Shown one piece after another: positions 22,641 to 61,645 of a DNA stretch of 64,000 nt (positions within the stretch are counted from its first letter, which is position 1; each line of letters starts with the position of its first letter). The notes below the pieces were generated by a model. That model saw nothing but the letters and a program-made list of their open reading frames with translations. It did not search any database and was not told where the DNA came from. Made by a program: the position numbers and the translations under genes. Source of the stretch: Dillenia suffruticosa (lineage: Eukaryota; Streptophyta; Magnoliopsida; Dilleniales; Dilleniaceae). The stretch covers positions 1,867,501 through 1,931,500 of the forward strand of contig JAVTVX010000029.1 in assembly GCA_033439265.1 (NCBI GenBank), in the 5' to 3' direction.

Positions 22641-22671
<31 letters not shown>

Positions 22672-23932: not shown

Positions 23933-23950
23933 GAAAGTGGTTTCAAATAA

Positions 23951-23988
<38 letters not shown>

Positions 23989-24061
23989 GGACTTTGCAAG
24001 AGAGAAAGAGAGAGCTGGAGTGCGTTGAGGTTTTGATGAAAAAAGAGTACTTCAAGGCGGG

Positions 24062-24069
24062 TTTATATA
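24062..24069 (-). promoter_or_regulatory. TATA box of the raffinose synthase gene
   Basis: On the minus strand the sequence reads CTATATAAAC, a strong TATA match, about 130 bases upstream of the ATG. It predicts transcription from near 24030, with a roughly 100-base leader containing the CT repeat at about 23960-23986. Confidence 0.6.
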
Positions 24070-24270
24070 GACAAAGTGAATGGGAAATGAAGAGGAGATA
24101 TTGAACGTGAAATGTTTCTTTTGTGAAAAAGAGAGATTGAGTTGGTTTTACAGTGGTGTTTTTGAGCAATGTTTGCTTCAGGAGATGGATTTGGTGCTCA
24201 TTTATAGGCAACGATTGGGTTGGCAAGATAAGAAATTTCCAGTGAATGTGGTGGGCTTTCACGAAATTTC

Positions 24271-24302
<32 letters not shown>

Positions 24303-24320
<18 letters not shown>

Positions 24321-24417
24321 GCAAATGTCATAGATGGCCCCACTGGGGGGTCACTATAGAGAGAGAGAGAGAGAGATTATGCAAATGTCATAGATGGCCC
24401 CACTGGGGGGTCACTAT
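24303..24417. repeat. Tandem ~62-bp duplication upstream of raffinose synthase
   Basis: A unit of GA repeat plus GATTATGCAAATGTCATAGA and the following segment up to GGGGTCACTAT occurs twice back to back (about 24303-24355 and 24365-24417) without visible differences in the unique part. A longer GA run precedes it. The perfect identity points to a recent event. It lies about 230-350 bases upstream of the predicted TATA box. Confidence 0.92.
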
Positions 24418-40693: not shown

Positions 40694-42774
40694 ATGGGCA
40701 GTCATCATCTTTTTGGGCAAACATATTCATCCCTGCTTCAAATTCAGTTTCCTTCTCTCTCATCTCCAAAAAGGTAAATTATGAGCCGGGTTTTTCTTTC
40801 TTTTTTCTTTTTTTTTTTTTTTTCTCAAAACTCGAATTTTTTTGCATTTGGACTGACTGTTTCTTTGCCTTTTCCATTGGACACTCGAAGACTTTCAATA
40901 AGAGAAAATAGAGCAGACCCACCACTTAATTTTGTTAGATTTGAGGTAAATTTCCTTAAAAGCAACAAATTGCCCACAAAACTGTGTGCTATGAGTGCTG
41001 CAGATAATGGGTTTTCTGGAATAATTAAAGAGAAAGATGCAGTCATCATAGTTGATCATGGGTCTCGCAGAAAGGAGTCCAATCTTATGCTCAGTGAGTC
41101 ATTTTACTTATTTCAATCATATCTGTCCTTTGTGCTTCCTCTAGGATGTGTTTTGGGCAAAATTTAGTTTGAGCCATTTGTGTTTGTTTGGCAGATGAGT
41201 TTGTGGCAATGTTTAGGGATAAAACTGGTTATGCAATTGTGGAGCCTGCTCATATGGTAAGGGTCTTTTTTGGGTCATTTGGATCTAATCTACACTGTAA
41301 TTACATTTCAAGCAATGCCCACTTAAGGTAGATAACTGTTGAAGAAGTTTTGCAGGGAGGCATTTCCCAAATTTCCAGACTTGCACCATGGTCACTGGTT
41401 ATTAGTTCGGAAAGAATGTATTTGAACATTGGCAAACCATTGTGTGTATTCAAATTGATGCATTGCATTGGATCAAAAAGAATAATGCATATATTTGTAT
41501 AACTACCCTCGTATCAAATGTGCATTAAGAGTGGGAACTATATTTTGACAAGTTAAATTGTGATGGCATGGGTTGAATGGATCCCAAGATACCCCTGTGA
41601 TATAAAAATTTTCATATGACTTCCCTTTCACCAGAAGAAGCTTGGATGGTTGAAGACAGGGTTTTATGCTGGAGGTGTTAAAAAAATGAGTTAATTCAAG
41701 AGTAATTTGCCTGCATTAAAGTTTAAAAAATTGCATCTGAGGAAAAAAAAGGGCAATAAAAGAAAAAGAGAAGGTCTTTGATTCATGCTGACAGACTGTT
41801 GCTTCCTGTAGTCTATGTAGGTAGCTTTTTTATCTTAAAATGGGGTCTTTTGATGTAATCTGCTCCTACAATAGCATATAGTGATTAGAGTTTTAATTGC
41901 TTTCATCCTCTTTTCTTATGTCTAGGAGCTGGCAGAACCATCAATAAAAAGTGCCTTCAGGGCTTGTGTGGAGCAAGGGGCAAATCGTGTAGTCTTGAGC
42001 CCATTCTTTCTCTTTCCTGGTCGCCATTGGCATCTAGTAAACCCACATTTTTATCCTCATTTGATTTAAGATGAATTTCAGGATGCAGCAAGCAGGGTTG
42101 AAGATTTTGCTTTATGTCTGTAATATTTACAGAAATAAATTTGTGTTCATTGTACAGGATATTCCTTCCTTAACAGCTGAAGCTGCAAAAGAGCACCCAG
42201 GTGTCTCTTATGTCATTACAGCACCTCTTGGTCTGCATGAGCTCTTGGTGGTAATCCATGTTTCACTTCTAAGTTTCTCCTTTCTTTGGTTTTTTTCTTC
42301 CATAAACGTCTCATTTATACTGAATGATGTGCTCAGCCTGTGAGTGTGCGAATAAGTGAACCCTCATGCAAAAATTATTCACACATTTGCAAATGCTTCT
42401 CCTTCACATGATGGGCTCACCATACTCTTGGATATATTCAGAACTATAAATACTCATTAGTACTCATCATTCCGCAAAATTTTAACAATGCTGTCATCTG
42501 GAATTGCATCGCTTCCTATTCCCATCTCTTGTCTTTGTTTATTCCTGTAGAAGCAAAATTTAATTTCTTGATTCATTTTGTGATGGCCTTTCTGTGCCAA
42601 CATTCTTTGAACATGGCATTATATATGGTGAGCCTAAGATGTTTGACTTTGCAGGATGTTGTCAATGACAAAATCAAGCACTGCTTGAGTCATGTGGCTG
42701 GGGATGCTGAAGCATGTGATGTTTGCACTGGAACGGACAAGTGTAGGCTCTACAACTTAACTAAAGATGCATAA
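40694..42774 (+). CDS. SIRB: Sirohydrochlorin ferrochelatase, chloroplastic
   Basis: Six-exon model: 40694-40773, 40891-41093, 41195-41256, 41926-42036, 42158-42250 and 42655-42774, giving 222 residues, like the plant enzyme. It inserts iron into sirohydrochlorin to make sirohaem, the cofactor of plastid nitrite and sulfite reductases. The N-terminal exon reads MGSHHLFGQTYSSLL and is Ser-rich without early acidic residues, as in chloroplast transit peptides. The CbiX core shows VIIVDHGSRR, EPAHMELAEPS, SPFFLFPGRHW and DIPSLTAEAA. The tail has the Cys cluster CDVCTGTDKC, which carries the [2Fe-2S] centre in plant SirB. The first exon is chosen because its phase-2 end matches the acceptor at 40890. 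An alternative ATG at 40781 would turn a T-rich intron tract into a poly-Phe stretch. Confidence 0.9.
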
Positions 42775-43421
42775 TGGAAAACCTTTACAAACAACCAGAG
42801 GCTTCTTCTCTGAGAAGTCTTCAATCTCAAAACTGGGATATCTGATTTATCTCACCGCTTGAGAGTTAAGACCTTATGCCATTTTCCACTGATTGCTCAT
42901 TTTGGAGGAGGGAATAGGAATAGAATGTGCTAATCCAAGCAAATACAAGAAAATCAGTTCTTAGTTAGCATTCTCATGGTTTCTCAGTTGAAACTGAGAC
43001 AAGAAAGACCTGTCAACTAAGAAACGACAGTTTGGACCGGAAAAGAACGCTGTAATTGAGGGAAATAAGCTGACGGTTTGGAGGTTTGGTATTGAAGGCT
43101 GGTGTTTTACTTAGTCTGGATTCACCTAAGTGTCTGTGTTCTGTTATTATTTATTTATTTATTATTGTTATTATTTTTTTTGGCTAATAAACTGTTCTAG
43201 ATGTAGGATGTCCTGCAGTGAGTCATTAGTCATTCGCACCTGTAAAGATGACACTGTGCTTAAGATACTTGCACCTACTGTTCTCTGTATATGCAGATAT
43301 GGGTCATCTCATTGTATAAAGTGTGTATGAAATTACTTAAATATGGTTTCTCATTGCTATGTAGCTGCAGTTCTGACGCCTATTTCTATATTAATGTAAG
43401 TTTCAGAGTGCCTGTATTTCA

Positions 43422-43626
43422 TTAGGTGAAGCTTGAACAGATCACTAACAGTGGCAGCCTTGTCAAGCATATTGATTTGCAATTGATACTATCTATATTT
43501 GAGCCAGTTATATCCTCCAGCCATGGCAAAATCCTAGAAAACTTTTCCCTTTGTAATTCCTCAGTTGCACTAGCTCGTGCCTTTGCTTGAGCAGGGGATT
43601 CTTCGTCCACTGCTGCACTAGCTGCA
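43422..43626 (-). pseudogene. Possible orphan exon or gene remnant (coding-like)
   Basis: A minus-strand frame of about 68 codons follows a plausible acceptor (GTGCAG before 43626) and ends at a stop at 43422. Its first half is markedly protein-like: charged, with EELQREKFSRILPWLE, which would form an amphipathic helix. The second half is less convincing. No start or further exons are recognised upstream on the minus strand. It may be a remnant of a lost gene or a terminal exon whose partners I cannot see. Family unknown. Confidence 0.25.
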
Positions 43627-43639
43627 CGGTTTGCACCAA

Positions 43640-44690
43640 AGACGAGTTAGAATAACACTTATTAATTTATATTATACCAAATAGCTCTAATTTGGTAGCA
43701 GGATGCTACATGTATTAAACCAAGTACTTGGGGAAAATTTTGAGCCCAATCTTGGAGATCATCTAACTCATCAAAGTAGTGACCATAGGAACGTTCAAAT
43801 TTGGTCCGATCCTCCCATGATCATTCTTAAACCAAGAGAAGTGGAGATGTAGGGAATTGATTTCCGTTCATTTCATATTTTAAGCAAGTGTTCTATCATT
43901 TAAGCTACATCCGCTTACATTACCTACTATCAAAATAATATTTTCCAGCCTAGTTGGTGTAGATCCAAACCAATGATTAGTCATCGGTACTCTTTTTAAG
44001 TAAATTTTTAAATTCAAATTTTGTGTATAATAAAATAAGAACAAAATATCAAGAAAATTTTAATCAAACGTAACTCAAATCAGATTTATTCAAAATCAAC
44101 ATAATTTCTGAACACGGTTAGTTATACCCAAAGATTTTTTTTTTTTTTTCACATCATTCTCATGGTTTTTTATAAAACAACCCCCCCCCCCCCACCCCGC
44201 GGGGGCCCCCTGGAAGATGTTGCATATAGAATCTTTGACATTTGGGATTCATCACTAATGGTTAAACTTATTTTATTTCTATTTTATTTTCTTGTAATAT
44301 ATTTTTCAACTAAATTAAAAAAAATGATAGAACATAAAATTTTGTAAGTAAAATCCAAAATTTCTGAAGTAAAAATTTTTTGTTAAAAAGATAAAAAAAA
44401 AAAAATCTAATTATATTAATAATTTTTTAATTTAATTGAATTTAAAATTTTCAAGATGCCACTTAACAAGGGTATTATAAAGTTTTCCCTTTCCTTAAAA
44501 AGTCTTTGGTTATCAACGTAAATTCAACAAAGGGACCCAAACACTTACCCCATCGGAGCCTCCTACGCTCACGCTATCACCATCCCGGTCCGCTTCTCCA
44601 TAGTTGGTAAACCTCGTTGGGACGTAACTCCGTACTTGATTTTCCTAAGATACATCACAACTCACAAGTGGGTTTTGTTTAAGAGCGAGA
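43640..44690. other. Intergenic region with a G/C homopolymer block
   Basis: AT-rich spacer between SirB and the next plus-strand gene. At 44180-44212 a run of about 15 C is followed by ACCCCGC, then G and C runs. This is a striking departure from local composition and a candidate assembly trouble spot. No gene seen. Confidence 0.5.
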
Positions 44691-44697
44691 GGGAGTG

Positions 44698-44730
44698 ATG
44701 AGAAATGTGAAAAATGGCAGCGTCGGCTAA
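44698..44730 (+). promoter_or_regulatory. Two upstream AUGs, including an AUG-stop, before the 44714 start
   Basis: ATG at 44698 opens a 10-codon frame that overlaps the main start and ends with TAA at 44730. ATG at 44705 is followed directly by TGA, a start-stop element ending four bases before the main ATG at 44714. If transcribed, both would lower initiation at the main start. Whether the leader begins upstream of them is not shown by the sequence. Confidence 0.45.
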
Positions 44731-47350
44731 AACAGTCAGACAAGCAATCAGAATTAGAAGAACTTCTCTCTTTTCACTGAACTCTTCTTATTCGTCCTTC
44801 ACTCCAACCATTAGGCTAGCTAATCCGAGTACTCGCGTAGTTCACAGCATTTTCAATCGTTTAGAGACGTCGATAAGGTCCCTTCAACCTGTTCGACGAA
44901 ATGTCTCGAGGCTCCGTAACTGCAGCATAATTCAGGGCCAAGGCCAATTTGTGCATAATTTTCGCTTATCAGGCAAGCTATATTCAACTTGATGATCCCC
45001 ATTTGTTTATCATAAGTGGGTTTCGAAGATTTCTCTCTCTCTTTGCTGCAAATGCTTGACTTTGAAGTTTTTCCTTAGCATGAGTAATTGGGTTTGCACT
45101 AAATCCAAGAATGTATGGGGTTCTTTAAGTTTCGTGTTTTGTAGTTCCTGGTATTGTATAATGCGGCTTGTTATGTTAGCAAATCTTGTGGGTTATTCGA
45201 CAAATGTCCATATTTATGCTACTTGGGGGGTGTTCAACTCTCTTTCGTAGTAACCGTTCTCTGATTCCTTTACAAGTGATTATGCACTTTTTACCAATAG
45301 GGTAATGCTCTTTGGACCGTAGAATTTAATGACAAAATTAACAAAATTTACAAAGTTGAACGTGGTATGATTTTAGTGGATGCCATTGTTCATGAAAGGT
45401 GGCATTGCTAAGGTTTCTCCGTTAATTTAGATTTCCAAGCTGCAGTCATTATTTTTTGAAATGGATCCACCTTTTTGTTTATTTTAACTTTTTCTTTTTT
45501 CTTTTTCTATTATTTTTCCTCCAAGATGTTTGTTTGATTTCAAGACATGCTAGTATGTTCCTCCTGGGGTACTATCTTTTCATCCACGAAGTTTGTTTGC
45601 TTCATTATATAGGTTGTAACAAGCTACATTCAAAATTATATTAGGATCACAGTGTTTTCTTTTTTTCTTAGGCAACACATCTGCCATATTGATATTTGAA
45701 ATTGTCTTTATTTTATAATGTTCATAACTATCAATGGGCAGGTCAGCATTTTTCAGGATGGAAATTGAAACTGGGGTGTATGTTTGTTGCTTCTGTTGCA
45801 TTCAGGGAAATTAGCTTTCATCCACAAGTTGCATATGCCATGGATGGTGAGTAGAATTTCTGTATGCTGACCAACATGATCAACCTCTACTACTCATTCA
45901 TATAAATAAACTTTGTAAACGTGTTGTTGATTGGCTTTTTCTTGTTCTTAAACAAACAACTCAAGCCAAGTTTAGTCTACGATACCGTTATAATACCAAA
46001 GCCGACTTCATGATGTAGGCTTGGATATTTTGGCTAGTGATCATGAAGAAGATTCCGGTGCGTCGGATTTGATAAATCGCGTAAAGACCTTCTGGGAAGT
46101 TGCAAGGAATTATTGGCTCCCTTGTTTGTTAGTTTTTCTAGTGGCAACATCTTGGAATAATCCTATTATCCTTGCAGCGAAAGTCACTCTTTTCCTCATT
46201 GGCACAACGCCTTCTCCTTTATCGGTATATGTTGTGGTTGAAAAGGTCGGAGACTTTTTGCTTTCCTAATTTATGTTTTGAGAGCTCACAAGTTAGCAGA
46301 AATATTTGTCATATTTGTAGCTTCAGGATATTACCACGACAACTATATTCTGCCTTCCTCTGAAGTCCGGAAAACTTGGTGCCTGATACTTGTCATAAAA
46401 ACACGCTAAAAACCTCCAATTTACTTGACTGTAAATTATCTGTTTTATTCCTATTCTCGAGGTTGTCTTGAATTAGCTATAACTCAACAATTTAGATTTG
46501 AACTGATATTAGTAGTGTCTTTGCTATTTCATAAATACTTCTTTCAATGTTCAGTCAAGTTCTTAACTTCATTATTCCTATACTTGCAGATGTGCAATCA
46601 ATCTCATGGTGAGATGCTACACTTCTTTCAAAAGGTTTGTGTGTAAAACTTTTATAACATCTCTCAGGTCCTTGATACCGTATTTTGTTTTACCAAAATT
46701 CTCCTGCTATTTCATATTTATTGCAAGCCACTCATTGTTGTTGCTCTGTTAAGCAGTAGTTTTCTGGAGCTGGTGTGACTTCACATTGGTGGTTTAGTTC
46801 CTAGTGTTGAACTCTTCATGCACGTATTTCTCAAAGTTAGAAGCATAGTTGAATTCTGTGATGGTAAAATGTGAAGACCAGACAATGCCATGAACTTAAA
46901 GTTCTAACATTGCATGTTCGCTTGATGGATTGATAATCCGTGTCCCCACAGATCTTCTTCAACCATCTAGAATTTTGTCTATGATTTCCTGGACGATGGA
47001 AAATAGGCTTCACCTGATTTTCCCCACAATTTTTCATTTCCTATTAATGCTTTATGTGTTTTTGTTTCATTTACTACATTTGGTATCTTAAGATTCAATT
47101 GATTAGAAGAGGCTATTTGACCAACTCATGCGGTTTCTCTCTTTCTCTGCAGCCAGTGTACGCAAGGAAAGTTGAAGTCGATGATTACAAACTTCTGTGT
47201 ATTGCTAGAGTTGAACTGAAAGATCAAAAGTTCATACTTATTGGAATTGTTGGCAACTGGTGGGTTTTGCCATCATTGCCGGTTCATGCCTTTCGAGGTG
47301 CACTTGACATAATTAGGAAACAAGCTCTCAAAGAAAGCAGAGATCTCTAA
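44714..47350 (+). CDS. Unrecognised membrane protein with organelle-type N-terminus
   Basis: Five exons: 44714-44972, 45742-45846, 46019-46224, 46590-46634 and 47153-47350, phases 1/1/0/0, giving 270 residues. I do not recognise the family. The first about 80 residues are rich in Ser, Arg and Thr with almost no acidic residues, typical of a mitochondrial or plastid presequence. A hydrophobic patch, then an acidic stretch (DHEEDSGASD), lead to one or two membrane segments (WLPCLLVFLVATSW and ILAAKVTLFLIG). The C-terminus has a compact soluble tail (FILIGIVGNWWVLP). The first intron has a GC donor. Two upstream AUGs precede the start. Its 3' end faces that of NRT2.7 copy A, 156 bases away. Exons 2-5 lie in the tandem duplication; exon 1 does not. 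The strong frame and phase continuity over five exons support a real gene. Confidence 0.78.
44973..45741 (+). other. GC-AG first intron of the 44.7-kb gene
   Basis: The exon ends TTATCAG and the intron begins GCAAGC; the acceptor is GGGCAG at 45741. Joining gives an in-phase frame from exon 1 into exon 2. Without splicing, the frame stops seven codons after the donor. No GT donor nearby yields the same phase. The unit A breakpoint (about 45248) falls inside this intron. Confidence 0.75.
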
Positions 47351-47506
47351 GGTATGCCAAATTGTAAGCAAATCTAATTATGCACTTATTGGATTCCAAT
47401 AAACTCATAATGCCATGTCTTGAATCGGAGGCAATTCCCAAAGTAAGAGGCTGGTCACATTCAGAGTCTTCATTTTCTGAAACTGCTTATATTTGATGCT
47501 TGAATC

Positions 47507-49339
47507 TTATGCAAGGAGACTGTAGTCTGCTCCATCATCTGAAGTGAGATCTGAGGAAGGACCACAGAACATGCCACCCCATTGAGAGAAGTAGATGAGA
47601 GTAATGGCTTGAGTGCATACAATCATCATAAGCCCCATGAGAGAAATGCCTGCCTGCCTTGAAAACTTAGAGCCTGAAAACAGAAGCAGCTGTGTGATCA
47701 CTGCTCCCACTGCTCCTCCACTACCAGTCATCCCAGATATTACTCCGAGTGACCTGCACATGTAATTTTTTTCCTCAATTATTATAATCAGGAGACTTTA
47801 AGTTGAATGAACTCTTATGTTTGTTTAGTTCAACATAATTACCAAATGTTTTTTGTCATGCTCATGACCAAGTGACTCGCATGGGGCATGTGGATAAATA
47901 TTCGTGCACAAACCATGCGTGGAGATGATGTTTTACCCTTTAATAACTGGCTATTCCCCAAAAAAGGTGTTTCAGAGTTGGGGAATCGGTGCCAGTTTTG
48001 GCATTATTGCATTTTAAGACGAGTACACTGGTATAACTATATTAATAGTAAATAAAAAGGATTCTCTATGTTTTTGTAGGCATTGATTTCGTAAAAGCTT
48101 AGCAAACCATGATCCAAAACTGAAATGGAAACTGAAATGCTGCGCGAAATTACAGACAAAGCAAAAGGGGAAAATTCCATTTCTCTTCTGAATTCTCACT
48201 AACCTTTTTGAAACGAAAGGAACCACACCAAAGGTCAGGCCAGAGGCTGCTTGTACAAAGATTGAGAAACCAAACATCACCAGCATTGAACCCAACAGTG
48301 AATCGACCCGACCAAGCAAAACACAAAGCAACCCAGCCACCATCTGCACAGCCCACAAGCCCCATAGCCTTCCTCTCATCCCAAACCTCTCCCCCATCCA
48401 ATCCGAAAACCAACCACCCATGGGCCGGGACATCAAGTTCGCCAGCCCGAATGTTGCTGCCACCGCTCCGGCAACCTGAATATCCAACCCGAACCTGTCA
48501 TAAAAGTACTGAGCTATAATGTTATCTATAGTCAACTCAACTCCGAAACAACACCCATATATCAACCCAAGTATCCAGCCTCTATAATTCCTCAACCCTT
48601 CTAGTACTTCGAATAGTTGACCTGTTTTTCGCTCTTTTCGGGGATCACAAACGGGTCTATAGTATTTTTTATCTGGGGTGTCTTGCCCGCATATTAGGAC
48701 TAGCAGCGCAGTTAAAACTTGAAGCGTAGCCGGAAAAAACAATGTGATCCTCCACGCCGTGGACGGTAGGAAGCCGGAATTGACAATGAGAGTGTAAACC
48801 AAGGGTAAGATCAGTTGGGTCACGCCAGAGCCCGTGTTGGCCCAGCCTGCAGAGAACGCGTTGGCGAGCCCGACGATCCGGCCCGAGAACATGGAGCTCA
48901 TCCAAAACTGGTTGGCCACGAAATTGGCAAGAGAAAACCCAACAAGAAAGCGAAAAAGAGTAAAGGATTGAGGAGTGGATATGAAGGGTGCCATGGAGAA
49001 AATAGATGCTGTGAGGAGAGAGACTGTGGCCGAAGTGAGGCGCGGGCCGAAAAGGTCGCAGGCTGGGCCCATGGCGAAGCGGGAGAAAATGGAGCCAAGG
49101 AAGGTGACTGTGCCGGCATGGCTAATGTCAGCATCGGTTAAATTAAGGTCGTCACGAATAACAGGAAGAAGAGAGGCCACAGCAAAGGTGGAGAAGAAGC
49201 AAGAAAACAGAGAGAACCATGCAAGATGAAAGGATAGCATGTGTGGTGGAGCCACCGAGAATGGGCGGAATTCGGTGGCCTTGTGCTCGGAGTCTACTTG
49301 GACGGTGAAGGGTTGTTTTGTGGAGGAGGGACTTTCCAT
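47507..49339 (-). CDS. NRT2.7: High-affinity nitrate transporter NRT2.7-type, copy A
   Basis: Two exons: 49339-48204 and 47753-47507, joined in phase 2 (SKR|SLGVISGMTG), giving 460 residues. It is a Major Facilitator protein of the nitrate/nitrite porter family with about twelve membrane segments. It matches Arabidopsis NRT2.7 in FRPFS, FHLAWFSLFSCFFSTF, GSIFSRFAMGPACDLFGPR, LANFVANQFWMSSMFSG and the nitrate-porter signature region AGWANTGSG. Arabidopsis NRT2.7 is tonoplast-located, loads nitrate into seeds and does not need NAR2; location here is inferred. The sequence from the ATG looks intact. It is the older-position copy of a tandem pair and converges with the 44.7-kb gene, whose stop is 156 bases away. 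Confidence 0.93.
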
Positions 49340-51704
49340 TTTCTCTGGTCAAGTAAATGTAAATGATGTGAAGTCAATATATGAGTTTGGGGTTAGTGTG
49401 GTGCATAATGTATCACTATTATATTTTTATTAATATTTAATTAAATATTTATTTATCACATAAAATTCAATTCATTTTATCCATCTTTTTTAAAACAATT
49501 ATAAGATGAATTATATTATATGAACCAAATGAATTCTAAAATAAATGGGCCAAATCTAATATAATAATTTATATTAATAAAAATAAAAAATACTAAAAAT
49601 CAAAGTAATCTTAATTTTTTTAAAAGTAAAATAATTTTTTTTAAAAATTATATTAAAATAGATTCTAACGTAAAATTAGACCCATTTAACCATCGGATGC
49701 GTATCCTCCACTGGTTTAGATGTTCACCGGTTAGCATCAAAAGAAGGGTGGTGACAAATTTGCTGCTCTCTAACGGTGACGGGAGAGCCGAGTGGCATGG
49801 AAATAAAGGTTGGGACCATTCGGTAGCTCTCAAATATAAAGAGGAGCACCAATGCGTTGTTATTCTAACTAAAAATATTAACTTTTTTTAATCAAATTCT
49901 CAAAGTATCGTGAGAACTCATCTATTAATAAATCCGATAGTTAATTTAAATCAGATTAGTCAGTATAATAAATTAGTTATTAAACACAGATTGATCAAGA
50001 AAAAAATAGAGACGGGAGTCACCCAATTTTGGGGGGTTTTTCACTTAACCCTAGAATTTTTTTTTCTTTTTTTGTTGGGGGATTTAATTATGGGGTGGAT
50101 AATGGTATTGAAGATTGTTATTTTTTAAGTAATAGATTTTTCTTTTTTTTAAAAAGAAAAAATTTATGTGTTATATTCAAACTAAATACATATGTTTTGC
50201 ATTATTAGATTTTTTTAGATAAAGTCATTTTAAGTTTAATATTCATAATAAATAATTAAGTGCATGAGCTTAATTAGGTGGGAGTTTACCTGAGGAGCTT
50301 CGTTGAACTTAATTTATGTGCGAGACTCAAACTTGAGAATTTTGAGAAAAAATGAATGATACGAATTGAATTATAATTCATCGGGTGCTTGAGGAAAATA
50401 ACATGACATCAATTAGGGATAGATGATAGATCTCTCTATCTCTCTTTCTCCCTCTTCTTGGAAAAAGAATATGATCCTCTTTTGAAAAGTTAACTTATGT
50501 TAAATTGATTTTTAATTTAAAAATATAACATAATAATAATAATAATTTAAATATTTTATTAAAAATTTAATTTCTATTTGAAAAAAAATCTTTATTTCTA
50601 AAAAATTACTCTAATTAAAAATATTATAAAATAAAAATAAATTATGACAAACTGAAAAAAGTAGATGTTTCCCGAAGATTACCAAAAAATGAAAATCATT
50701 TGCGTGAGACATGCTATGCTGATCTTAACATACATCAAAACTTATTGTGTCAAATTTTTTTTGTTATTTTTGTGTCAAATATAAATAATCTTAAAAAATA
50801 GATTCGCTATTCTGATATTTATTAGACGGAGATTTATAAGTTTTATAAATAATAATATTATTTTTTTAATAAATTATCGGTAGCTAGTAATCGATTTCAG
50901 TCTGACTACGTTCTATTCGAATCGGATTAAATTATTAAGAGATTAATCCTTTTTTACGTTTATTTTTTTTAAACACAGATTTTAAGAGGTAATAATATCG
51001 GCGCGGCCATGGAATCAACCGGCGACTGAGAATAACAATATATCCTTAACAATTCCACCAAAAAAAAAAAAAAAACAATATATCCTTAACAAGAGGTAAT
51101 ATTTCTTTGTTAGTAATGGATGTTGGGATTTAGGTCATAAATATAAGGGGAGATTTGGAATGGCCAATATTACCCTCCCATGATTGGGACGTCCTCTGGT
51201 TGCCTTACCCTCGTGTTGTCCTTTTGTGGGGATGGCATAAGGCCAAATTTTGGAAGTTCAATCATCAGACTTTTCAAAAATTTTTGTCCCACGTAATTAT
51301 TTCTAGAATTTGTCATTCCTTTGTCATTTTTCAACTAATAATAGCTTTGGGGGGCCAAAAAATGCTATGACCCCATAAAATTTATTATTTTTGAAGAAAA
51401 AATAATAATTTTAAAGATCAAATAAAAAGCAAATAAGTTAATTAACCCCTTAAATTTTTAACTTTTCAAATATATTTATTTAGAAAAAAATTAAATTCGG
51501 ACTCTATATGAAAAATTTCTAAAACCGTCATTGTATTCATGGTTAAGGAGTCCTATTGCCGTTCTCATTGGGCCAACGGTCTATTGGTAGGTCTTGACAG
51601 TGATAAAAACGATATTGGGAAAACTCCCTTCCGACTAGGATCCAACAGCAACAAAGCTTCTAATACTCAGTGATAGACAAAGTTCAGAGACAAAAAAAAA
51701 AAAA
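49340..51704. other. Upstream flank of NRT2.7 copy A and unit junction
   Basis: AT-rich. The first about 160 bases are the promoter-proximal part shared with copy B. The block around 49690-49860 (CACCGGTTAGCAT) is also present in unit B at about 57235-57400. The short poly(A) insertion at 51053-51073 is found only here. The last 165 bases are junction sequence. No gene. Confidence 0.6.
51034..51092 (+). mobile_element. Tiny poly(A)-tailed insertion with 19-bp target-site duplication
   Basis: The 19-base sequence starting AACAATATATCC occurs at 51034-51052 and again at 51074-51092. Between them lie TTCCACC and a run of about 14 A. The equivalent place in unit B (about 58373-58400) has a single related copy and no A run. 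A poly(A) tract flanked by a direct repeat is what L1-type reverse transcription leaves. Replication slippage is the alternative. Confidence 0.6.
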
Positions 51705-52190
51705 TAGTAACCGTTCTCTGATTTCTTTGCAAGTGATTATGCACTTTTTCCCAATAGAGTAATGCTCTTTGGGCCGTAGAATTTAATGTCAAAATTTACA
51801 AAGTTGAATGTGGCATGATTTTAGTGGATGCCATTGTTCATAAAAGGTGGCATTGGTAAGGTTTCTCCTTTAATTTCGATTCCCAAGCTGCAGTTATTAT
51901 TTTTTGTTGAAATGGATCCACCCTTTTGTTTATCTGAACTTTTTCATTTTTCTTTTTCTATTATTTTTCCTGTAAGATGTTTGTTTGATTTCAAGACATG
52001 CTACTATGTTCTTCTGGGGTAGCTTTTCATCCACGAAGTTTGGTTGCTTCATTGTATCTAGGTTGAAACAAGCTACATTCAAACATATACTAGGATCTCA
52101 GTGTTTTCTTTTTTTCTTTGGCAACATATCTGTCATATTGATGTTTGAAATTGGCTTTATTTTATAATGTTCATAACCATCAATAGGCAG

Positions 52191-53930
52191 GTCAGCATTT
52201 TTCAGGATGGAAACTGAAACGGGGGTGTATGTTTGTTGCTTCTGTTGCACTCAGGGAAATTAGCTTTCATCCGCAAGTTGCATATGCCATGGATGGTGAG
52301 TGGAATTTCTGTCTGCTGACCAACATCATCAACCTCTACTACACATTCATATAAATAAACTTTGTAAACGTGTAGTTGATCGGCCTTTTCTTTTTCTTAA
52401 ACAAATAACTCAAGCCAAGTCTAGTCTATGATGCCATTATAATACCAAAGCTGACTTCATGATGCAGGTTTCGATATTTTGGCAAAAGATCATGAAGAAG
52501 ATTCTGGTGCTTCGGATTTGATAAATCGCGTACAGGCCTTCTGGGAAATTGCAAGGAATTATTGGCTCCCTTGTTTGTTAGTATTTCTAGTGGCAACATC
52601 TTGAATAATCCTATTATCCTTGCAGCGAAAGTTACTCTTTTTCTCATTGGCACAAGGCCTTCTCCTTTTCGGTATATGTTGTGGTTGAAAAGGTCGGAGA
52701 ATTTTTGCTTTCCTAATTTATGTTTTGAGAGCTCACAATTTAGCAGAAGTACTTGTCATATGTGTAGCTTCTTGATATTACCACGACAACTATACTCTGC
52801 CTTCCTCTGAAGGCCGAAAACTTGGTGCCTGATACTTGCCATAAAAACACACTAAAAACCTCCAACTTACTTGACTGTAAATAATCTGTTTTGTTCCTAT
52901 TCTTGATGTTGTCTTGAATTAGCTATAACTCAGTGATTTCGATTTGAACTGATATTAGTAGTATCTTCTGGTATTTCATAAATACTTCTTTCAATGTTCA
53001 GTCAAGTTCTTAACTTCATTATTCCTATACTTGCAGATGTGCAATCAATCTCTTGTGGAGATGCTACACTTCTTTCAAAAGGTTTGTGTGTAAAACTTTT
53101 ATAATATCTCTCAGGTCTTTGATGCCGTATTTTGTTTAACCAAAATTCTCCTGCCATTTCATATTTCTTGCAAGTCATTCATTGTTGTTGCTCTGTTAGG
53201 CAGTAGTTGTCTGGAGCTGGTGTGAGTTAACATTGGTGGTTTAGTTCCTAGTTTTGAACTCTTCATGCATGTAATTCTCAAAATTAGAAGCATAGTGGAA
53301 TTCTGTGATGGTAAAATATGAAGACCAGACAATCCCATGAACTTAAAGTTCTGACATTGCATGTTTGCTTGTTAGATTGATAATCCGCCTCCCCACTGAT
53401 CTCTTCTTCAACCATCTAGAATTTTGTCTATGATTTCCTTGATGATGGAAAACAGGCTTTACCTGATTTCCCCCATAATTTTTCATTTCCTATTAATGCT
53501 TTGTGTGTTTTTGTTTCATTTACTGCATTTGGTATCTTAAGATTCAATTGACTAGAAAAAGCTGTTTGACCAACCCATGCGGTTTCTCTCTTTCTCCGCA
53601 GCCAGTATAGGCAAAGAAAGTTGAAGTTGAAGATTACAAACTTCTATTTCTCGCAAGAGTTGAACTGAAAGATCAACAGTTCATACTTATTGGAATTGTT
53701 GGCAACTTGGTGGGGTGGCTTTTAGCGATAGATTTAGCGACGGAAAAAATCAGTCGTTGATATGTTTCAGCGACGGATTTCTTACTTTTAGCGATGGATT
53801 TTTCCGTCACCGATGACGTGTTTTCTAATAGTGGTTGGTTTTGCCATCATCACCGCTTCATACTTTTCGAGGTGCACTTGACATAATTAGGAAACCAACT
53901 CTAAAATTAAGTAAAGATCTCAAAGGTATG
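52191..53930 (+). pseudogene. 5'-truncated, disrupted copy of the 44.7-kb gene
   Basis: Counterparts of exons 2-5 are present at 52191-52295, from 52468, around 53037-53082 and from 53602. Exon 1, with the start codon and promoter, lies outside the duplicated unit and is absent. In the third exon one G is lost in ACATCTTGAATAAT, giving an immediate stop near 52602. The last exon has TAG (53608) where the parent has TAC, and is then interrupted by a CACTA-like insertion. The parent stop codon is also changed. It cannot encode the full protein. Confidence 0.92.
53717..53833. mobile_element. CACTA-like non-autonomous insertion (MITE fragment)
   Basis: About 120 bases interrupt the sequence GGCAAC-TGG-TTTTGCC that is continuous in unit A (47254-47272). 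The right end is TTTTCTAATAGTG, the reverse complement of CACTATTAGAAAA, a typical CACTA (En/Spm) terminus. Inside are several TTTAGCGACGGA-type subterminal repeats and an inverted one near 53808. The left terminus is missing or eroded. Too small to encode anything. Confidence 0.75.
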
Positions 53931-54086
53931 CCAAATTGTAAGCAAATCTAATTACAAGCTGTACTTATTGGCATTCCAATAATCTCAGAATGCCATGTCT
54001 TGAATCGGAGGTTCTTCCCAAAGTAAGAGGCTGGTCACATGCAGGGACTTCATTTTCTGAAACTGCTTATATTTGATGCTTGAATC

Positions 54087-56090
54087 TTATGCAAGGAGAG
54101 TGTAGTCTGCTCCATCATACGAAGTGAGATCTGTGGAAGGACCACAAAACATGCCACCCCATTGAGGGAAGTATATGAGAGTAATGGCTTGCGTACATAC
54201 AATCATCATGAGTCCCATGAGAGAAATGCCTGCCTGCCTTGAAAACTTAGAGCCTGAAAACAGAAGCATCTGTGCAATCACTGCTCCCACTGCTCCTCCA
54301 CTTCCAGTCATCCCAGATATTACTCCGAGTGACCTGCACATGTAATTTTTTTTTTTCTCAATTATCATAATCAAGAGACTTTCAAGTTAAATGAACCCTT
54401 ATGTTTGTTTAGTTCAACATAATTACCAAATGTTTTTTGTCATGCTCATGACTAAATGGCTCCCATGGGGCATGTGGATAAATATTCGAACGATGCGTGG
54501 ACATGATGTTTTACCATTTGATAACCGGCTACTCCCCATAAAAGGTGTTTCAGTGTTGGGGAATTGGTGCCACTCATGGCCTTAATGCATTTTAAGACTG
54601 TGTTGGCAAAGCCAACCCATAAATAGGGCTTCACAGACATTTGAATCAGATTAATCGAAATATAATTTTGAATATCTGATAAACAAAAAAAAAATGGATT
54701 CTCTATATTTTTGTAAATATTGATGTTGATTAAAATTTTAAATATATCATTAAAAATTTAAAATTTGAATTATTATTAAAATTTTTTACGATATTATTTA
54801 CCCCTCTACGGCCTCCTGCCTTAATTTACCATCACAAATGACCTCTACGAAGGACAAAAGAAAAAGCTTGGCAAAGCATGACACAAAACTGAAATGCAGC
54901 GCGAAACAGACAAAGCAAAAAGGAAAAATTCCATTTCTCTTCTCAATTCTCACTAACCTTTTTGAAACGAAAGGAACCACACCAAAGGTCAGGCCAGCCG
55001 CTGCTTGTACAAAGAATGAGAAACCAAACATCACCAACATCGAACTCAACAGTGAATTGACCCGACCAAGCAAAGCACAAAGCAACCCAGCCACCATCTG
55101 CACAGCCCACAAGCCCCATAGCCTTCCTCTCATCCCAAACCTCTCCCCCATCCAATCCGAAAACCACCCGCCCACGGGCCGGGACACCAAGTTTGCCAGC
55201 CCGAATGTTGCTGCCACCGCTCCGGCAACCTGAATATCCAACCTGAACCTGTTATAAAAGTACTGAGCTATAATGTTATCTATAGTCAACTCAACTCCGA
55301 AACAACACCCATATATCAACCCGAGTATCCACCCTCTATAATTCTTCAACCCATCTAGTACTTCCAATAGTTGACCTGTTTTTGGCCCTTTTCGGGGCCC
55401 TTTAACGGGTCTATAGTATATTTCATCTGGGGTGTCTTGCCCGCATATTAGGACTAGCAGCGCAGTTAAAACTTGAAGCGTCGCCGGAAAAAACAATGTG
55501 ATCCTCCACGCCGTGGACGGTAGGAAGCCGGAATTGACAATGAGAGTGTAAACCAAGGGTAAGATCAGTTGGGTCACGCCAGAGCCCGTGTTGGCCCAGC
55601 CTGCAGAGAATGCGTTGGCGAGCCCGACGATCCGGCCCGAGAACATAGAGCTTATCCAAAACTGGTTGGCCACGAAATTGGCAAGAGAAAGCCCAACAAG
55701 AAAGCGAAAAAGTGTAAAAGATTGAGGAGAGGATATGAAGGGTGCCATGAAGAGAACAGACGCTGTGAGGAGAGAGACTGCGGCCGAAGTGAGTCGCGGG
55801 CCGAAAAGGTCGCAGGCTGGGCCCATGGCGAGGCGGGAGAAAATGGAGCCAAGGAAAGTGACGGAGCCGGCATGGCTAATGTCAGCATCGGTTAAATTAA
55901 GGTCGTCACGAATAACAGGAAGAAGAGAGGCCACTGCAAAGGTGGAGAAGCAGCAAGAGAAGAGAGAGAACCATGCAAGATGAAATGACAGCATGTGAGG
56001 TGGCGCCACCGAGAATGGGCGGAATTCGGTGGCCTTGTGGTCGGAGTCCACTTGGACGGTGAAGGGTTGTTTTGCGGAGGGAGTTTCCAT
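54087..56090 (-). CDS. NRT2.7: High-affinity nitrate transporter NRT2.7-type, copy B
   Basis: Two exons: 56090-54958 and 54333-54087, same junction as copy A, 459 residues. The whole frame is open and all family motifs of copy A are kept. By eye about 37 residues differ, plus one codon missing near the N-terminus. Nine of the differences fall in about 30 residues of the central cytosolic loop (after GQDTPD, roughly 223-253), so the membrane core is the better-conserved part. This fits continued selection on a working transporter. Its proximal upstream flank (to about 56268) resembles that of copy A, but Ty1/copia-derived sequence begins immediately beyond. Function as a vacuolar nitrate transporter is inferred from the family; divergence in expression is likely but unproven. 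Confidence 0.92.
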
Positions 56091-56264
56091 TTTTTCTGTT
56101 CTGGTTCAGTAAATGATGTGAATCCAATATATATGTTTTCGAAGGTGGTACAATCGGGTTGGTGTGGTGTATAATGTATCACTATTATATTTTTATTAAT
56201 ATTTAATTAAATATTTATTTATCACATAAAATTCAATTCATTTTATCCATCTTTTTTAAAACAA

Positions 56265-57000
56265 TTCTCTGATGAGTGACTTGATAAACAAATTTGTTCA
56301 ATTCTTCCTTGATCGGATTTGTTATATATCGATTTCATCATTTTTCTGAAAATCATATGTGAAAAAAAATTTTAGTAAAATATATTAAATTCTTTCTCTT
56401 TTAATATATTCTCTCTTTAAATGTACAATACTGGTAGCATTATTTTTAAATACTACTGTAGAAAAATCTTTCTTAGAGGATAGCCCGTTGTTTTTTTAGA
56501 TATAATGAATCATTGACTATAATCAAATAAATTCTCAACTTGTTTCATGAATAGTTATGATATTGACATGATTTGAAGAATGGCAACCGTATGTTGTTTT
56601 ATAGATCGCCATGGTATAGTAATACCGTCATTAAATATATATCCCGTTTGAGATCATGGTTTATGTGGATCATATAAGAATCTAACATCCGTATATCCAA
56701 TCATCACTAGTTTAAAATTATTAGAATAGAATAAGCTAAGATCAACTATTTCTTAAAAATATCAAAAAATATGTTTGATCCCATTCCGATGTCGTCATGC
56801 AGGAGAATAACTAAATCTTGTTAATATATTCACAACAAATGATATATTAGATCTTTTACAATTAGCAAAGATATCCAAGTGTTCTAATGACACTGAAGTA
56901 TCATACTTCAAAATCTAGAAGTTTTTCATGTTTCTCTATTGGTTTGAAAGAATCTTTGTCAATATCAAGCGGGGTATTTACATAAAAGAAAAGATCTAAA
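56265..57000 (-). mobile_element. Degenerate Ty1/copia retrotransposon fragment (RT end to RNase H)
   Basis: Read on the minus strand, this stretch gives, with several stops and frame changes, the end of a copia reverse transcriptase followed by the RNase H domain. It includes recognisable HWNGIKHI-like, YTDVRFLYDPHK-like and SQTGYIF patterns and the HLK tail block. No LTRs, integrase or gag are seen. It lies about 180-900 bases upstream of the NRT2.7 copy B start and has no counterpart in unit A. It is inactive. Confidence 0.85.
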
Positions 57001-59266
57001 GTCAAGTTAATCAAATATTTCCTAAATATATAAAATTAAAAAAAAAATTTATCTTCTATAAGTTGGCATATATTAAATATGTTTGATATTAAATATTTCA
57101 TGGACATCTATCTAAATTTTCTAAAGTTTATAACAAATTTTAAATTTTTTAAAATATTTTTACAAGTAAAATAATTTAAAAAGATTATATAAAGATCGAT
57201 TATAACATAAAATTCGACCCATTTAAGTATAGGAGCGTCTCCTCCGGTGGTTCTGATGTTCACCGGTTAGCATGAAAAGAAGGTGGTGGGAACCAACTTG
57301 CAGCTCTCTAATGGAGATTGGAGGGCCGAGTGGCAGGGAAAGAAAGGTTGGGGACAACTCTGTAGCTCTCTGATAGAGATAGGAGCCAACCACTTTGAGG
57401 GGGGTTTCACTTAATTAGGTGTTGAACTTAATCTATTAAGTGTAATATAAAGTTAATGTATACAATTAAATACATGCTCTTAATAATTTGAATAATTCAA
57501 TGTTTGCATAAAAATAGTGAATATTCTTTGTGTTATTTATATGTAACAAAGTCTAATCGGTGACTGAACACTAATACCTCTTAAATAATATCTCGAATTT
57601 AAATCTTATATATGAATTAAAAAAACATGCGTTAGGAAAGATTTATCTTTTAATAATCTAATTCGATTTAAATCAAATTTAGTCGACTACAACGTAATTT
57701 TTAGAGCACGACAGTTAATCCCAAAAATTGGCATATATTCCTTGAGAAAAATGCCATGGCATCCAACAATCGCAGATCTCTCTCTCTCTCTTTAGAGAAA
57801 AGAATATGACCCTCTCTTGAAAATTAACTTATTTTAAATTATTAATATAATAAATTAAATATTTTATTAAAAATTTAATTTCTATTTGAAAAAATCTTTA
57901 TTTTTCAAAAATTACTCTAATTAAAAATATTATAAAATAAAAATAAAATAAAATAAATCGAAAAAAGTTGATATTTCTTGAACTTTATAAAAAAAAAAAG
58001 AAGAAAATCATTTACATCAGACATGGTATTCCCAAAAAAAAATTATATTTATTTGATCTTAGCTTACATCAAAACTTCTTGTGTCAAAATTTTTTGGGTC
58101 AAATATAAATAATCCTGAAACATGGGTTCGTTATTCTCATATTTAGTACGTAGACTAAGATTTACAAGTTTGATAAATAACAATATTTTCTTTTTTTTTT
58201 AATAAACTATAGGTATTCGGTAATTAGTTGCATTCTGATTAAATTTGATTCGAATCGGAATGAATTCTTAAGGGGTATATATTTTTTTATATCTATTTTT
58301 TTTAATAAAATTAAAATTTAAAATTTTATTTAAGAGTCAATAGTATCAGCCACCGAATCAATTAGCCACCGATAATAACATTGTATCCTTCACAAGAGGT
58401 AATATATCTTTGCTAGTAATGGATGTTGGAATTTAGGTCATAAATATAAGGGCAGACTTGAAATGGACAATATTACCCTCATGACTGGGACGTCCTCCGG
58501 TTGGCGTTGTCCTTTTGTGGGGATAGAAAAGGGGCAAATTTTAAAAGCTGAATCATCAGACTTTCCTAAAATTTTTGTAAAAAAGTATATATTATATTTT
58601 AAGAAGTATTATTTTTGTAAAAAAAAATAAATGATATTTTTAGAAATCAAATAAAAGGCAAATAAGGTAGTTAATTCTTTAAATTTTCAATTTTTCAAAT
58701 ATATTATATTTTAAGAAAAATTAAATTTTGACTGTCATAAAAAAAATTTCAAAAATTATTATTGTATTCGACGATTATTATTTTTTATAAAATAAAAAGA
58801 TAAATTGATCGAAGATTATTAAAACCGATAACATTTTGTAAGTACAATGGTAAGACTAAAACTATTTTTTATTTTCACAATGTGATTTTCTCGTATCGAT
58901 TGATATCCGTTTGCATGTAATCTAACCTCACACGTCGCCCTTCTTCCCTAATTAGATATCGGATTTGAGGTATAAATATTATCCTTAAAATAAATCTATC
59001 CCATAACTCCATCAAGATGTCAAGAGTAGTAACTCTTTTTTTGTTTCTGATAGACCCTAAATTATTAAGATTAAGTTTCAGTTGATTGTAGTTGGATTAT
59101 TTCCCGCCATACTAACATGGGGATGCATGGCTTTTCAAACCGGAAATATTTTTGACTAAACTGCCCTTGCCGCGCCGCGTGGATTAGCTCATTCGCTTCC
59201 AGACATTAAACCTTTGCGGAGATAGAAGATTGGATCCGCAAAAGCCACAACCTTGTTCTGTTGGGC
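57001..59266. other. Remainder of unit B flank and spacer to the PPR gene
   Basis: From about 57150 to 58770 the sequence again parallels the flank of NRT2.7 copy A. From 58770 to 59266 it is unique and includes the upstream region of the PPR gene. AT-rich, no gene. Confidence 0.55.
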
Positions 59267-61645
59267 ATGAGCTTTTATAAACAATTCATTTCGATTGAAT
59301 TTAGGTTCTTTTACCGGCATTACCAAACGCATGGGAAATTTTTGTCACTCTCTTCCAGGTCTCTCTCTCATTTGTGCTCATCAACTACCTTAACACACAC
59401 GCAAAATATAAGGAGTGCCATTAGAAGTCTCTCTCTCACTGACCCAAAAACTCAGTCCCAAGCTTATGTAGAAACTTGTATTTATCTTCTGAAAATTTTC
59501 TCAGCCCGTAGTTGGATTCCTGAAGGATGTGTCCTTCATGCCCATTTGATCAAAATGGGTATTTTAAATAATAAACATGTGGCTCTCAAATTGCTTCTAA
59601 TGTATTGGAATGTTCGAAGATATGTGGAAGTTGACGAGTTGGTGAAGGACTTTAATGGGTTTGATCTTGTTGCCTATAATTGTTTAATTTTTGCTAATGT
59701 TGAGCGGGGAAATCTGGAAAAAGCCTGTATTTTATTCGACGAAATGCCTGAGAAGAATGAGGTTTCTTGGACTGCAATCATTTCAGGGCTTATGAAACAC
59801 GGGAGGGTTGAGGAAGCAATTTGGTATTTTGAGAGAAACCCATTTCAGAATTTGATCTCTTGGACCGCAGCGATAAGTGGCTTAGTTCAGAATGGACTAA
59901 GTTTGAAGGCTTTGAAGTTTTTTGTCCGTATGCTTGCTTCTGGGTTCATGCCAAATGATGTGACTTTCACTTCTGTTCTAAGAGCTTCTAGAGCTTTGGG
60001 AGATATTGGGTTGGGCATGAGTATTTTGGGGCTGATTGTTAAGATTGGTTTTGAGAATCATGTTTCTGTTTTGAATTCTTTGATCACTTTAAATTTGAGG
60101 CTGGGAGAAGTTGATTTGGCGAGGAAAATCTTTGATCAGATGGAAGAGAGAGATGTTGTTTCTTGGACTGCAATTTTGGATGTGTATGTTGAGCTAGGCA
60201 ACTTGAGAGAAGCACGGAGAATCTTTGATATGATGCCTGAAAGAAATGAAGTTTCATGGAGTGCAATGATAGCCAGATATAATCAAAGCGGTCATGGTGA
60301 AGAAGCGGTAAAACTTTTCTGTCAGATGTTGAGAGAAGGATTCAAACCAAATATCTCTTGTATTTCTGCTGTTTTCAGTGCATTAGCAAAACTTGAGGAT
60401 TTAAAAACCGGAATGAGTGTTCATGGATATGTAGTGAAAATTGGAAGTGAAAAGAATATATATGTCAGTAGCTCTCTGATTGACTTGTACTGTAAATGTG
60501 CAGAAGCTGATGATGGACGGAAAGTCTTTGACTCGATTTTGGAGAAAAATGTCGTGGCTTGGAATTCAATGGTTGGCGGGTACTGTCAGAATGGCAAAAT
60601 GGAAGAAGCACTGGTATTGTTTCAACAAATCCCAAAAAAGAACAATGTCTCTTGGAACACTATAATTGCTGGCTATTTACAAAATGATCAATGTGATAAG
60701 GTATTTGAAATTTTCAATGGGATGCTTTCTTTTGGGGAGAGCCCAAGCGCCTCCACCTTCTGTAGTGTTCTCTGTGCTTGTGCAACAATGGCATGGTTGG
60801 AGAAAGGAAAAATATTGCATGGAAAAACCATCAAACGTGGGGTTCAGTATGATATTTATGTTGGAACTGCACTTACTGACATGTATGCAAAATCTGGGGA
60901 TATAAATAGCGCTAGGGAGATCTTCAACAGAATGCCGGAGAAAAATGAAATATGTTGGACAGTCATGATTCAGGGACTTGCTGAAAATGGATTCGCGGGG
61001 GAGTCTCTTATGATGTTCGAAGAAATGGAAAGATCTACTGCTGTTGCTCCTAATGAGTTGATGCTTTTAGCAGTCCTGTTTGCATGTTCTCATTGTGGAC
61101 TAGTGGATAGAGGGCTCTCATACTTCAATTCCATGGAGAAAATTTATGGTATAAAACCAATGGAGACACATGTCACCTGCGTGGTGGATTTACTTTCTCG
61201 ATCAGGAAGGCTTTCTCAGGCAGAAGAATTTATCAATAGTATGCCGATTCAGCCAGAATCTAATGCATGGGCGGCTCTCTTAAGCGGATGTTTCACTCAC
61301 AAAAATGAAGAAATTGCGGAAAGGACAGCTATAAAACTCTGGGATCTGGCAGATAACAACTCTGCACCTTATGTTTTATTGTCAAATATTAATGCTTTTG
61401 CTGGGAAATGGATTGATGTTTCCAATATTCGACAGACAATGAGAGATAGGGGACTGAAAAAATTTGGAGGGAACAGTTGGATTGAGGTGAAAGAGCTGGT
61501 TCATTGCTTTTATTCTGGTGACAGATCTCATCCTCAATCAACTAGAATTTATGAGCTTTTAGACTTGTTGTGGAGTGACATGTTAAATTTTTCGGACTCG
61601 TACTCAAAATTTAAGACACGGTCAGATGAGTGTAAAATGTTTTGA
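59267..61645 (+). CDS. PLS-class pentatricopeptide repeat protein with E/E+ domains
   Basis: A single uninterrupted frame of 792 residues from ATG at 59267. A Ser/Arg-rich N-terminus with few acidic residues suggests import into mitochondria or plastids. Degenerate PPR units run from about residue 120 to 660, with typical phrases such as NEVSWTAIISGL, RDVVSWTAILDVY and VYVGTALTDMYAKSGD. The tail from about 663 to 765 is an E/E+ region (WIEVKELVHCFYSGDRSHP). There is no DYW domain, so any C-to-U editing would need a partner deaminase. Absence of introns is normal for this family. PLS-class members bind specific organelle RNAs; the target cannot be read from sequence here. Downstream, the coiled-coil gene converges, its stop only 157 bases away. 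Confidence 0.92.
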   Translation: MSFYKQFISIEFRFFYRHYQTHGKFLSLSSRSLSHLCSSTTLTHTQNIRSAIRSLSLTDPKTQSQAYVETCIYLLKIFSARSWIPEGCVLHAHLIKMGILNNKHVALKLLLMYWNVRRYVEVDELVKDFNGFDLVAYNCLIFANVERGNLEKACILFDEMPEKNEVSWTAIISGLMKHGRVEEAIWYFERNPFQNLISWTAAISGLVQNGLSLKALKFFVRMLASGFMPNDVTFTSVLRASRALGDIGLGMSILGLIVKIGFENHVSVLNSLITLNLRLGEVDLARKIFDQMEERDVVSWTAILDVYVELGNLREARRIFDMMPERNEVSWSAMIARYNQSGHGEEAVKLFCQMLREGFKPNISCISAVFSALAKLEDLKTGMSVHGYVVKIGSEKNIYVSSSLIDLYCKCAEADDGRKVFDSILEKNVVAWNSMVGGYCQNGKMEEALVLFQQIPKKNNVSWNTIIAGYLQNDQCDKVFEIFNGMLSFGESPSASTFCSVLCACATMAWLEKGKILHGKTIKRGVQYDIYVGTALTDMYAKSGDINSAREIFNRMPEKNEICWTVMIQGLAENGFAGESLMMFEEMERSTAVAPNELMLLAVLFACSHCGLVDRGLSYFNSMEKIYGIKPMETHVTCVVDLLSRSGRLSQAEEFINSMPIQPESNAWAALLSGCFTHKNEEIAERTAIKLWDLADNNSAPYVLLSNINAFAGKWIDVSNIRQTMRDRGLKKFGGNSWIEVKELVHCFYSGDRSHPQSTRIYELLDLLWSDMLNFSDSYSKFKTRSDECKMF

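Follow-up and report, generated by a model that had tools for sequence, protein, structure and literature searches.

A tandem segmental duplication in Dillenia suffruticosa carrying two intact transporter genes, most likely of the NRT2.7 type

The stretch of Dillenia suffruticosa DNA analysed here, referred to as the window, comprises 64,000 nucleotides (C29:1867501-1931500, where C and a number denote a contig; positions below are counted from its first base). The genome searched comprised 596 Mb in 37 contigs. The window holds two adjacent duplicated units, each containing a gene for an NRT2-type transporter (copies A and B) and part of a neighbouring gene on the opposite strand. The units and their genes are as follows.

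45248-51538: duplicated unit 1, 6,291 bp (self-BLAST, repeat families and full alignment)
51705-58769: duplicated unit 2, 7,065 bp, head-to-tail with unit 1 (self-BLAST, repeat families and full alignment)
48204-49339, minus strand: copy A exon 1, start codon at 49339, donor AAAAAG/GTTAGT, Pfam MFS_1 at 3.6e-26
47507-47753, minus strand: copy A exon 2, acceptor TGTGCAG/G, ending in a stop codon; whole protein 460 amino acids
54958-56090, minus strand: copy B exon 1, start codon at 56090 (spliced frame), Pfam MFS_1 at 8.5e-25
54087-54333, minus strand: copy B exon 2, acceptor TGTGCAG/G, ending in a stop codon; whole protein 459 amino acids
44714-44972, plus strand: neighbour gene exon 1, outside unit 1, with an apparent GC donor, not duplicated (gene model)
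45742-45846, 46019-46245, 46590-46634 and 47153-47351, plus strand: neighbour gene exons 2-5 in unit 1, open (gene model)
52191-53925, plus strand: neighbour fragment in unit 2, counterparts of exons 2-5, a pseudogene (alignments, frame reading and indel list)
53707-53831: 125-bp dispersed-repeat insertion inside exon 5 of the unit-2 neighbour fragment (alignment)

Self-BLAST of the window identified three main direct, collinear matches between the units: 45248-47264 with 51705-53714 (91.6%), 47258-48020 with 53832-54598 (90.0%), and 48129-49500 with 54886-56266 (93.0%). All three had E = 0, which excludes chance. The upstream intergenic pieces of the units matched more weakly, at 76-83%, and reached 51383-51538 and 58607-58769. 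Since the units are homologous, adjacent and head-to-tail, and each spans more than one gene, they are an ordinary tandem segmental duplication, an everyday kind of gene birth in plants. A preliminary description of this DNA had claimed two collinear units of about 6.3 and 7.1 kb, each with a complete, open-frame transporter gene and with exons 2-5 of the neighbour. Self-alignment returned the lengths listed above in direct orientation, both spliced transporter frames were intact, and exons 2-5 of the neighbour lay in both units, with exon 1 found only upstream of unit 1. No repeat common to the outer breakpoints that would explain unequal crossing-over was identified by self-BLAST of the window at E 1e-10, making non-homologous joining the simpler guess as to how the units were joined.

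Copies A and B have uninterrupted two-exon frames, with a GT-AG intron at the same place and identical splice words. Their proteins were 92% identical, with 37 aligned residues that differ and a gap of one codon, and the coding sequences had 75 differences. Exon 1 alone scored 92.3 bits (A) and 87.8 bits (B) against PF07690 (MFS_1), for which the gathering score is 33.4, and the best NCBIfam match of the copies, by a wide margin, was TIGR00886 (NarK nitrate/nitrite transporter; 1.6e-79 and 3.6e-76). A PDB sequence search with A identified none of 177,635 distinct sequences at E 0.001, and a search with B at E 10 returned only two phage coat protein sequences (E of about 0.6). These searches therefore gave no structural outgroup.

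A protein search of the whole genome produced 17 match rows from 15 candidates. Four rows belonged to A and B, four to two NRT2.5-like genes (on C24 and C26), six to two NRT2.1-like genes (C10a and C10b, on C10 at 15.2 and 21.9 Mb), and three to relics, two at C10:23.36 Mb and one at C21:15.13 Mb. The names NRT2.5-like and NRT2.1-like are provisional family assignments. The only intact genes of the A/B clade identified by this search were A and B themselves. In a tree without Arabidopsis sequences they formed a branch of their own, apart from the C24 and C26 genes and from C10a and C10b. When provisional versions of the Arabidopsis NRT2.7 and NRT2.1 sequences were added, with no Arabidopsis NRT2.5, A and B joined NRT2.7 with a support of 1.000. 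Raw identity separated the families less well, as A was 60.4% identical to the C26 gene, a value as high as the 58.9% to the provisional NRT2.7. Based on the in-genome relatives and on a provisional reference sequence, A and B are most likely NRT2.7-type, and we treat the tree with the Arabidopsis sequences as a lead rather than a test. The two NRT2.5-like genes resemble A and B in having two exons joined at the corresponding point and in being 58-60% identical to them. Unlike A and B they encode 510 residues, with a C-terminal tail that the pair lacks, and fall on a separate branch; dS (synonymous distance) between the C24 and C26 genes was 0.144.

The neighbouring gene encodes a protein of 277 amino acids that matched nothing in Pfam up to E 1 or in NCBIfam up to E 0.1. 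Its fragment in unit 2 carries 1-bp deletions at about 52602 and 52668, a nonsense codon at 53608-53610 and the 125-bp repeat insertion. The inserted repeat had at least 40 matches in the genome, the window copy included, among the best 40 of 571 candidates scored. These lesions bear out the earlier claim that the fragment had decayed. The missing stop codon of unit 2, on the other hand, is no sign of decay. At the stop position (window 47345-47360) unit 1 has TAA, and unit 2, C10 and C21 all have AAA followed by GT, which makes unit 1 the odd one out. Either the stop arose in unit 1, or the ancestral gene continued into another exon. With the C10 copy as outgroup, 26 derived changes were assigned to the unit-2 fragment and 17 to the unit-1 exons, with three ambiguous (571 sites). 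The C10 copy itself has an in-frame stop in exon 4 (its exon 1 lay outside the model). As the unit-2 copy is also broken, an open copy was seen only in unit 1.

Segments related to this locus were identified on C10 and C21. The segment at C10:23.36 Mb, in reverse orientation, was collinear with window 41035-47947, with longer pieces at 79.6-85.5%, and its match at window 41035 ends where the fetched stretch ends. The transporter relic there consists only of the end of exon 1 and of exon 2, with an in-frame stop; no further piece of exon 1 was present in the 9 kb fetched beyond it. The segment at C21:15.13 Mb (C21:15133542-15135099; 19 kb fetched) was limited to the part of the neighbour with exons 4-5 and to a transporter exon 2 with stops. 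Both transporter relics thus adjoin relatives of the neighbouring gene. The noncoding Jukes-Cantor (JC) distance was 0.079 between units 1 and 2, 0.165-0.174 to C10 and 0.18 to C21, so that the tandem event would, at equal rates, be about half as old as the C10 split. The presence of a third segment, on C21, suggests that large-scale or segmental duplication occurred in more than one round. The C21 segment was slightly closer to C10 (JC 0.154) than to C29. In addition, two short stretches in C10:23354575-23356731 matched window 22479-22635 and 19179-19265, near a raffinose synthase-type gene, at 75-77%; on C10 the transporter relic is 4-6 kb away from them, a far shorter distance than in the window.

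The comparison of A with B by the NG86 method gave dS 0.113, dN (nonsynonymous distance) 0.039 and a ratio of the two, omega, of 0.346 (bootstrap 0.21-0.55). A separate codon analysis by maximum likelihood (ML) gave omega 0.42 and rejected omega = 1 (p = 0.0004). The ratio of dN to dS between the copies, which had been put forward as a check, was therefore 0.35-0.48 depending on the method, and neutrality of the pair was rejected. The distribution of indels between the units pointed in the same direction. The noncoding set (45248-47506 outside exons, 47754-48020 and 49340-49500, leaving out the poorly aligned remainder of the intron and the intergenic region) had 15 indels in 2,090 aligned sites, 11 of them not multiples of three, and the exons of the neighbour fragment had three in 574 sites, all frameshifting. 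The transporter coding sequence had a single indel of 3 bp in 1,380 aligned sites and none that shifted the frame. The probability of an open frame persisting on one neutral lineage was 0.026 for indels times 0.16 for stops and start or stop loss, or 0.004.

To separate the two copies, branch models were fitted to A, B, the C24 and C26 genes as outgroup and the C10 relic. The A branch had an omega of 0.72, the B branch 0.25, the relic 1.73 and the other branches 0.097, and omega = 1 was rejected for B (p = 0.008). A model with the relics only (149 codons) gave 0.57 for A and 0.29 for B, with p = 0.048 for omega = 1 in B. Within the part covered by the C10 relic, the derived changes were four synonymous and six nonsynonymous in A, and seven synonymous and five nonsynonymous in B. 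In exon 2 the C10 and C21 relics differed by 21 nonsynonymous and 4 synonymous changes; the corresponding counts for A against B were 6 and 9 (Fisher p = 0.006). Together, these sequence comparisons support purifying selection having acted on the pair, with neutrality rejected for the pair and for B, and not for A alone.

The regions upstream of the genes and the junction of the units contain two further features.

About 56275-56969: dispersed-repeat fragment of about 0.69 kb upstream of B, beginning about 185 bp from the B start codon (alignment)
51591-51704, plus strand: A-tailed dispersed repeat resembling a short interspersed nuclear element (SINE-like), at the junction of units 1 and 2

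Copies A and B have about 160 bp of sequence in common in front of the start codon; this shared part ends in an identical run of 96 bp, beyond which they diverge. Because a dispersed repeat begins so close to the B start codon, the upstream regions of the two genes differ; the corresponding position in unit 1 has an unmatched stretch of only 112 bp (49501-49612). This repeat had at least 44 matches in the genome, the window copy included, with the best 40 of 311 candidates scored. We refer to it as a fragment, since three other copies share, by eye, sequence past its edges. A whole element with inverted terminal repeats was considered and rejected, the five longest of 75 inverted pairs in 56100-58900 being AT-rich and 70-78% complementary. 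The junction repeat had at least 40 matches, also with the window copy included (best 40 of 42 candidates scored), and all three of the relatives compared run into an A-rich end as well. The 8-bp shared word at this repeat was reached by 193 of 2000 shuffles, and we do not claim it as a target-site duplication. A tandem-repeat scan of 44000-60000 identified four short AT-rich rows, and a tRNA scan identified none.

We consider it probable that these observations reflect a head-to-tail duplication after which the transporter pair was kept under purifying selection and the extra neighbour copy decayed. A block of about 6.3 kb, running from intron 1 of the neighbour through the NRT2-type transporter to its upstream region, would have been duplicated after the larger-scale duplication that created the C10 and C21 segments. 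The left breakpoint would have cut the neighbouring gene, and the extra copy would have decayed because neither its exon 1 nor its promoter was duplicated. The transporter, by contrast, would have been duplicated whole with its proximal upstream sequence, and its frames would have been kept by purifying selection on the pair, most clearly on B. The transporter copies on C10 and C21 would have decayed to the relics now present, so that the tandem pair supplies all the intact genes of the clade found in the genome. By analogy, A and B may make nitrate carriers of the major facilitator superfamily (MFS) that load nitrate into vacuoles, in seeds or elsewhere, and the differences in upstream sequence may split their expression. 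On family grounds only, a function in seeds or vacuoles is a reasonable supposition. The co-duplicated pseudogene and the two relic copies serve as built-in neutral controls for the pair.

Several results weigh against this explanation. The TIGR00886 scores (267.6 and 256.7 bits) were below the curated cut-off of 311.7, in a library built for bacterial and archaeal annotation. The pairwise dN/dS was higher by ML (0.43) and YN00 (0.48) than by NG86, with LWL85 at 0.37. With one copy neutral, the share of 600 simulation runs at or below 0.346 fell from 16.8% to 3.7% as the omega of the partner rose from 0 to 0.2, and was 1.2% at 0.3. As one neutral copy can give the NG86 value, the pairwise ratio alone is no proof of constraint on both copies. 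For A by itself omega = 1 was not rejected, either in the model with the C24 and C26 genes and the C10 relic (p = 0.60) or with the relics only (p = 0.43), and in the latter even omega = 1 for both copies gave p = 0.089. The NRT2.5-like outgroup is distant, at 3.4 substitutions per codon, and the C10 relic provides only 146 of the 459 codons. Lastly, residue 435 is Ser in A but Pro in all four intact NRT2 relatives in the genome. The claim of the preliminary description that selection had acted on the second transporter copy consequently holds for the pair and for B, the copy in unit 2, but does not extend to A alone.

These data raised the question of whether only B is maintained, with constraint on A relaxed and A on its way to being lost although its frame is still open. 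The difference in branch omega between the copies, the same direction in the relics-only analysis and the Ser435 of A are what such a history would produce. However, equal omega for A and B was not rejected (p = 0.21, and p = 0.46 with relics only), and a frame that had been neutral for the whole time would seldom have stayed open, given the probability calculated above. Moreover, the four intact relatives agree with one another at 12 of the positions that differ between A and B; of these, B was the odd copy at seven and A at five, although both the C10 and the C21 relic match B at one of the former, residue 399. We therefore regard the loss of constraint on A as unlikely. Slightly more doubtful still is a fuller scenario, in which the duplication restored a second working transporter while the copies in the related segments were lost, the repeat gave B new expression, and B became the main NRT2.7-type gene with A relaxing.

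Repeated gene conversion could also have kept both frames open, in which case the intactness of one copy would say little about selection on that copy. There is a 128-bp identical run in exon 1 (48729-48856), which was reached by 23 of 1000 shuffles in a test that takes no account of codon constraint, and the 96-bp run just upstream of the genes (49405-49500) was reached by none of 1000 (160-site stretch). Nevertheless, coding dS (0.09-0.11) was not below the noncoding distance of 0.081, on which basis conversion of the whole gene was rejected, and we think repeated conversion improbable as the reason for the open frames. It is very improbable that the assembly placed two haplotypes end to end, as a noncoding divergence of 7.5-7.7% is high for alleles, the block begins within intron 1 of a gene, the units carry different repeat insertions with repeat-derived sequence at their junction, and 2 kb of unit 1, searched as DNA against the assembly, returned six matches, the two units and four C10 and C21 pieces at 77-84%, with no further near-identical copy.

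Other genes in the window lie at 13841-14917 (minus strand), 19965-24262 (minus), 40781 onwards (plus) and 59261-61645 (plus). The families identified by Pfam were a DUF1421 gene, a raffinose synthase-type gene and a pentatricopeptide repeat (PPR) protein with E and E+ motifs. One further frame, which had no Pfam match, resembles a sirohydrochlorin ferrochelatase, and we assume that a DUF1421 gene is near NRT2.7 in Arabidopsis also. Self-BLAST also identified a tandem repeat of about 500 bp with 78% identity at 10796-11787 and a perfect 60-bp tandem duplication at 24298-24417, just upstream of the raffinose synthase-type frame.

Arabidopsis NRT2.7 (At5g14570), which presumably works without NAR2, is like A and B an NRT2-type MFS carrier and groups with them when a provisional sequence of it is used. 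It differs in being a single gene rather than a tandem two, in the identity of 58-59% between its provisional sequence and the pair, and in that sequence being about 33 residues longer overall. The preliminary description had given one NRT2.7 for Arabidopsis, in agreement with the listing of seven NRT2 genes with one row for NRT2.7 (PMC10944928). The Arabidopsis protein is tonoplast-located and seed-expressed, affects seed nitrate, germination and proanthocyanidins (PMC10944928; PMC3924729), and alone carries nitrate in oocytes (PMC10944928). For poplar and four grasses, PMC2997785 reports no NRT2.7-like gene. As NRT2.7 is single in Arabidopsis and reported absent from those species, a plant with a retained tandem pair, if the history proposed here is true, would offer a natural way of testing for dosage or a division of labour in the storage of nitrate.

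The literature searched, of which coverage was partial, named no tandem NRT2.7 pair, and we make no claim that such a pair is unpublished. In pecan, nine tandem NRT pairs were counted, without being named at that place (PMC9655437). Rapeseed has BnNRT2.7a/b, on chrC02 and chrA02 and predicted vacuolar (PMC7547492), and cotton has GhNRT2.7a/b, predicted vacuolar and with expression in both leaves and ovules; one between-species pair there had a Ka/Ks above 1 (PMC10064996). Both resemble D. suffruticosa in having two NRT2.7 genes in one genome. The rapeseed genes, however, are on different subgenomes, whereas the pair described here is the product of a local head-to-tail duplication and the C10 and C21 copies are relics. 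The tandem NRT2 pairs named in cotton were NRT2.1/NRT2.3 (PMC10064996), unlike the NRT2.7-type pair of this locus.

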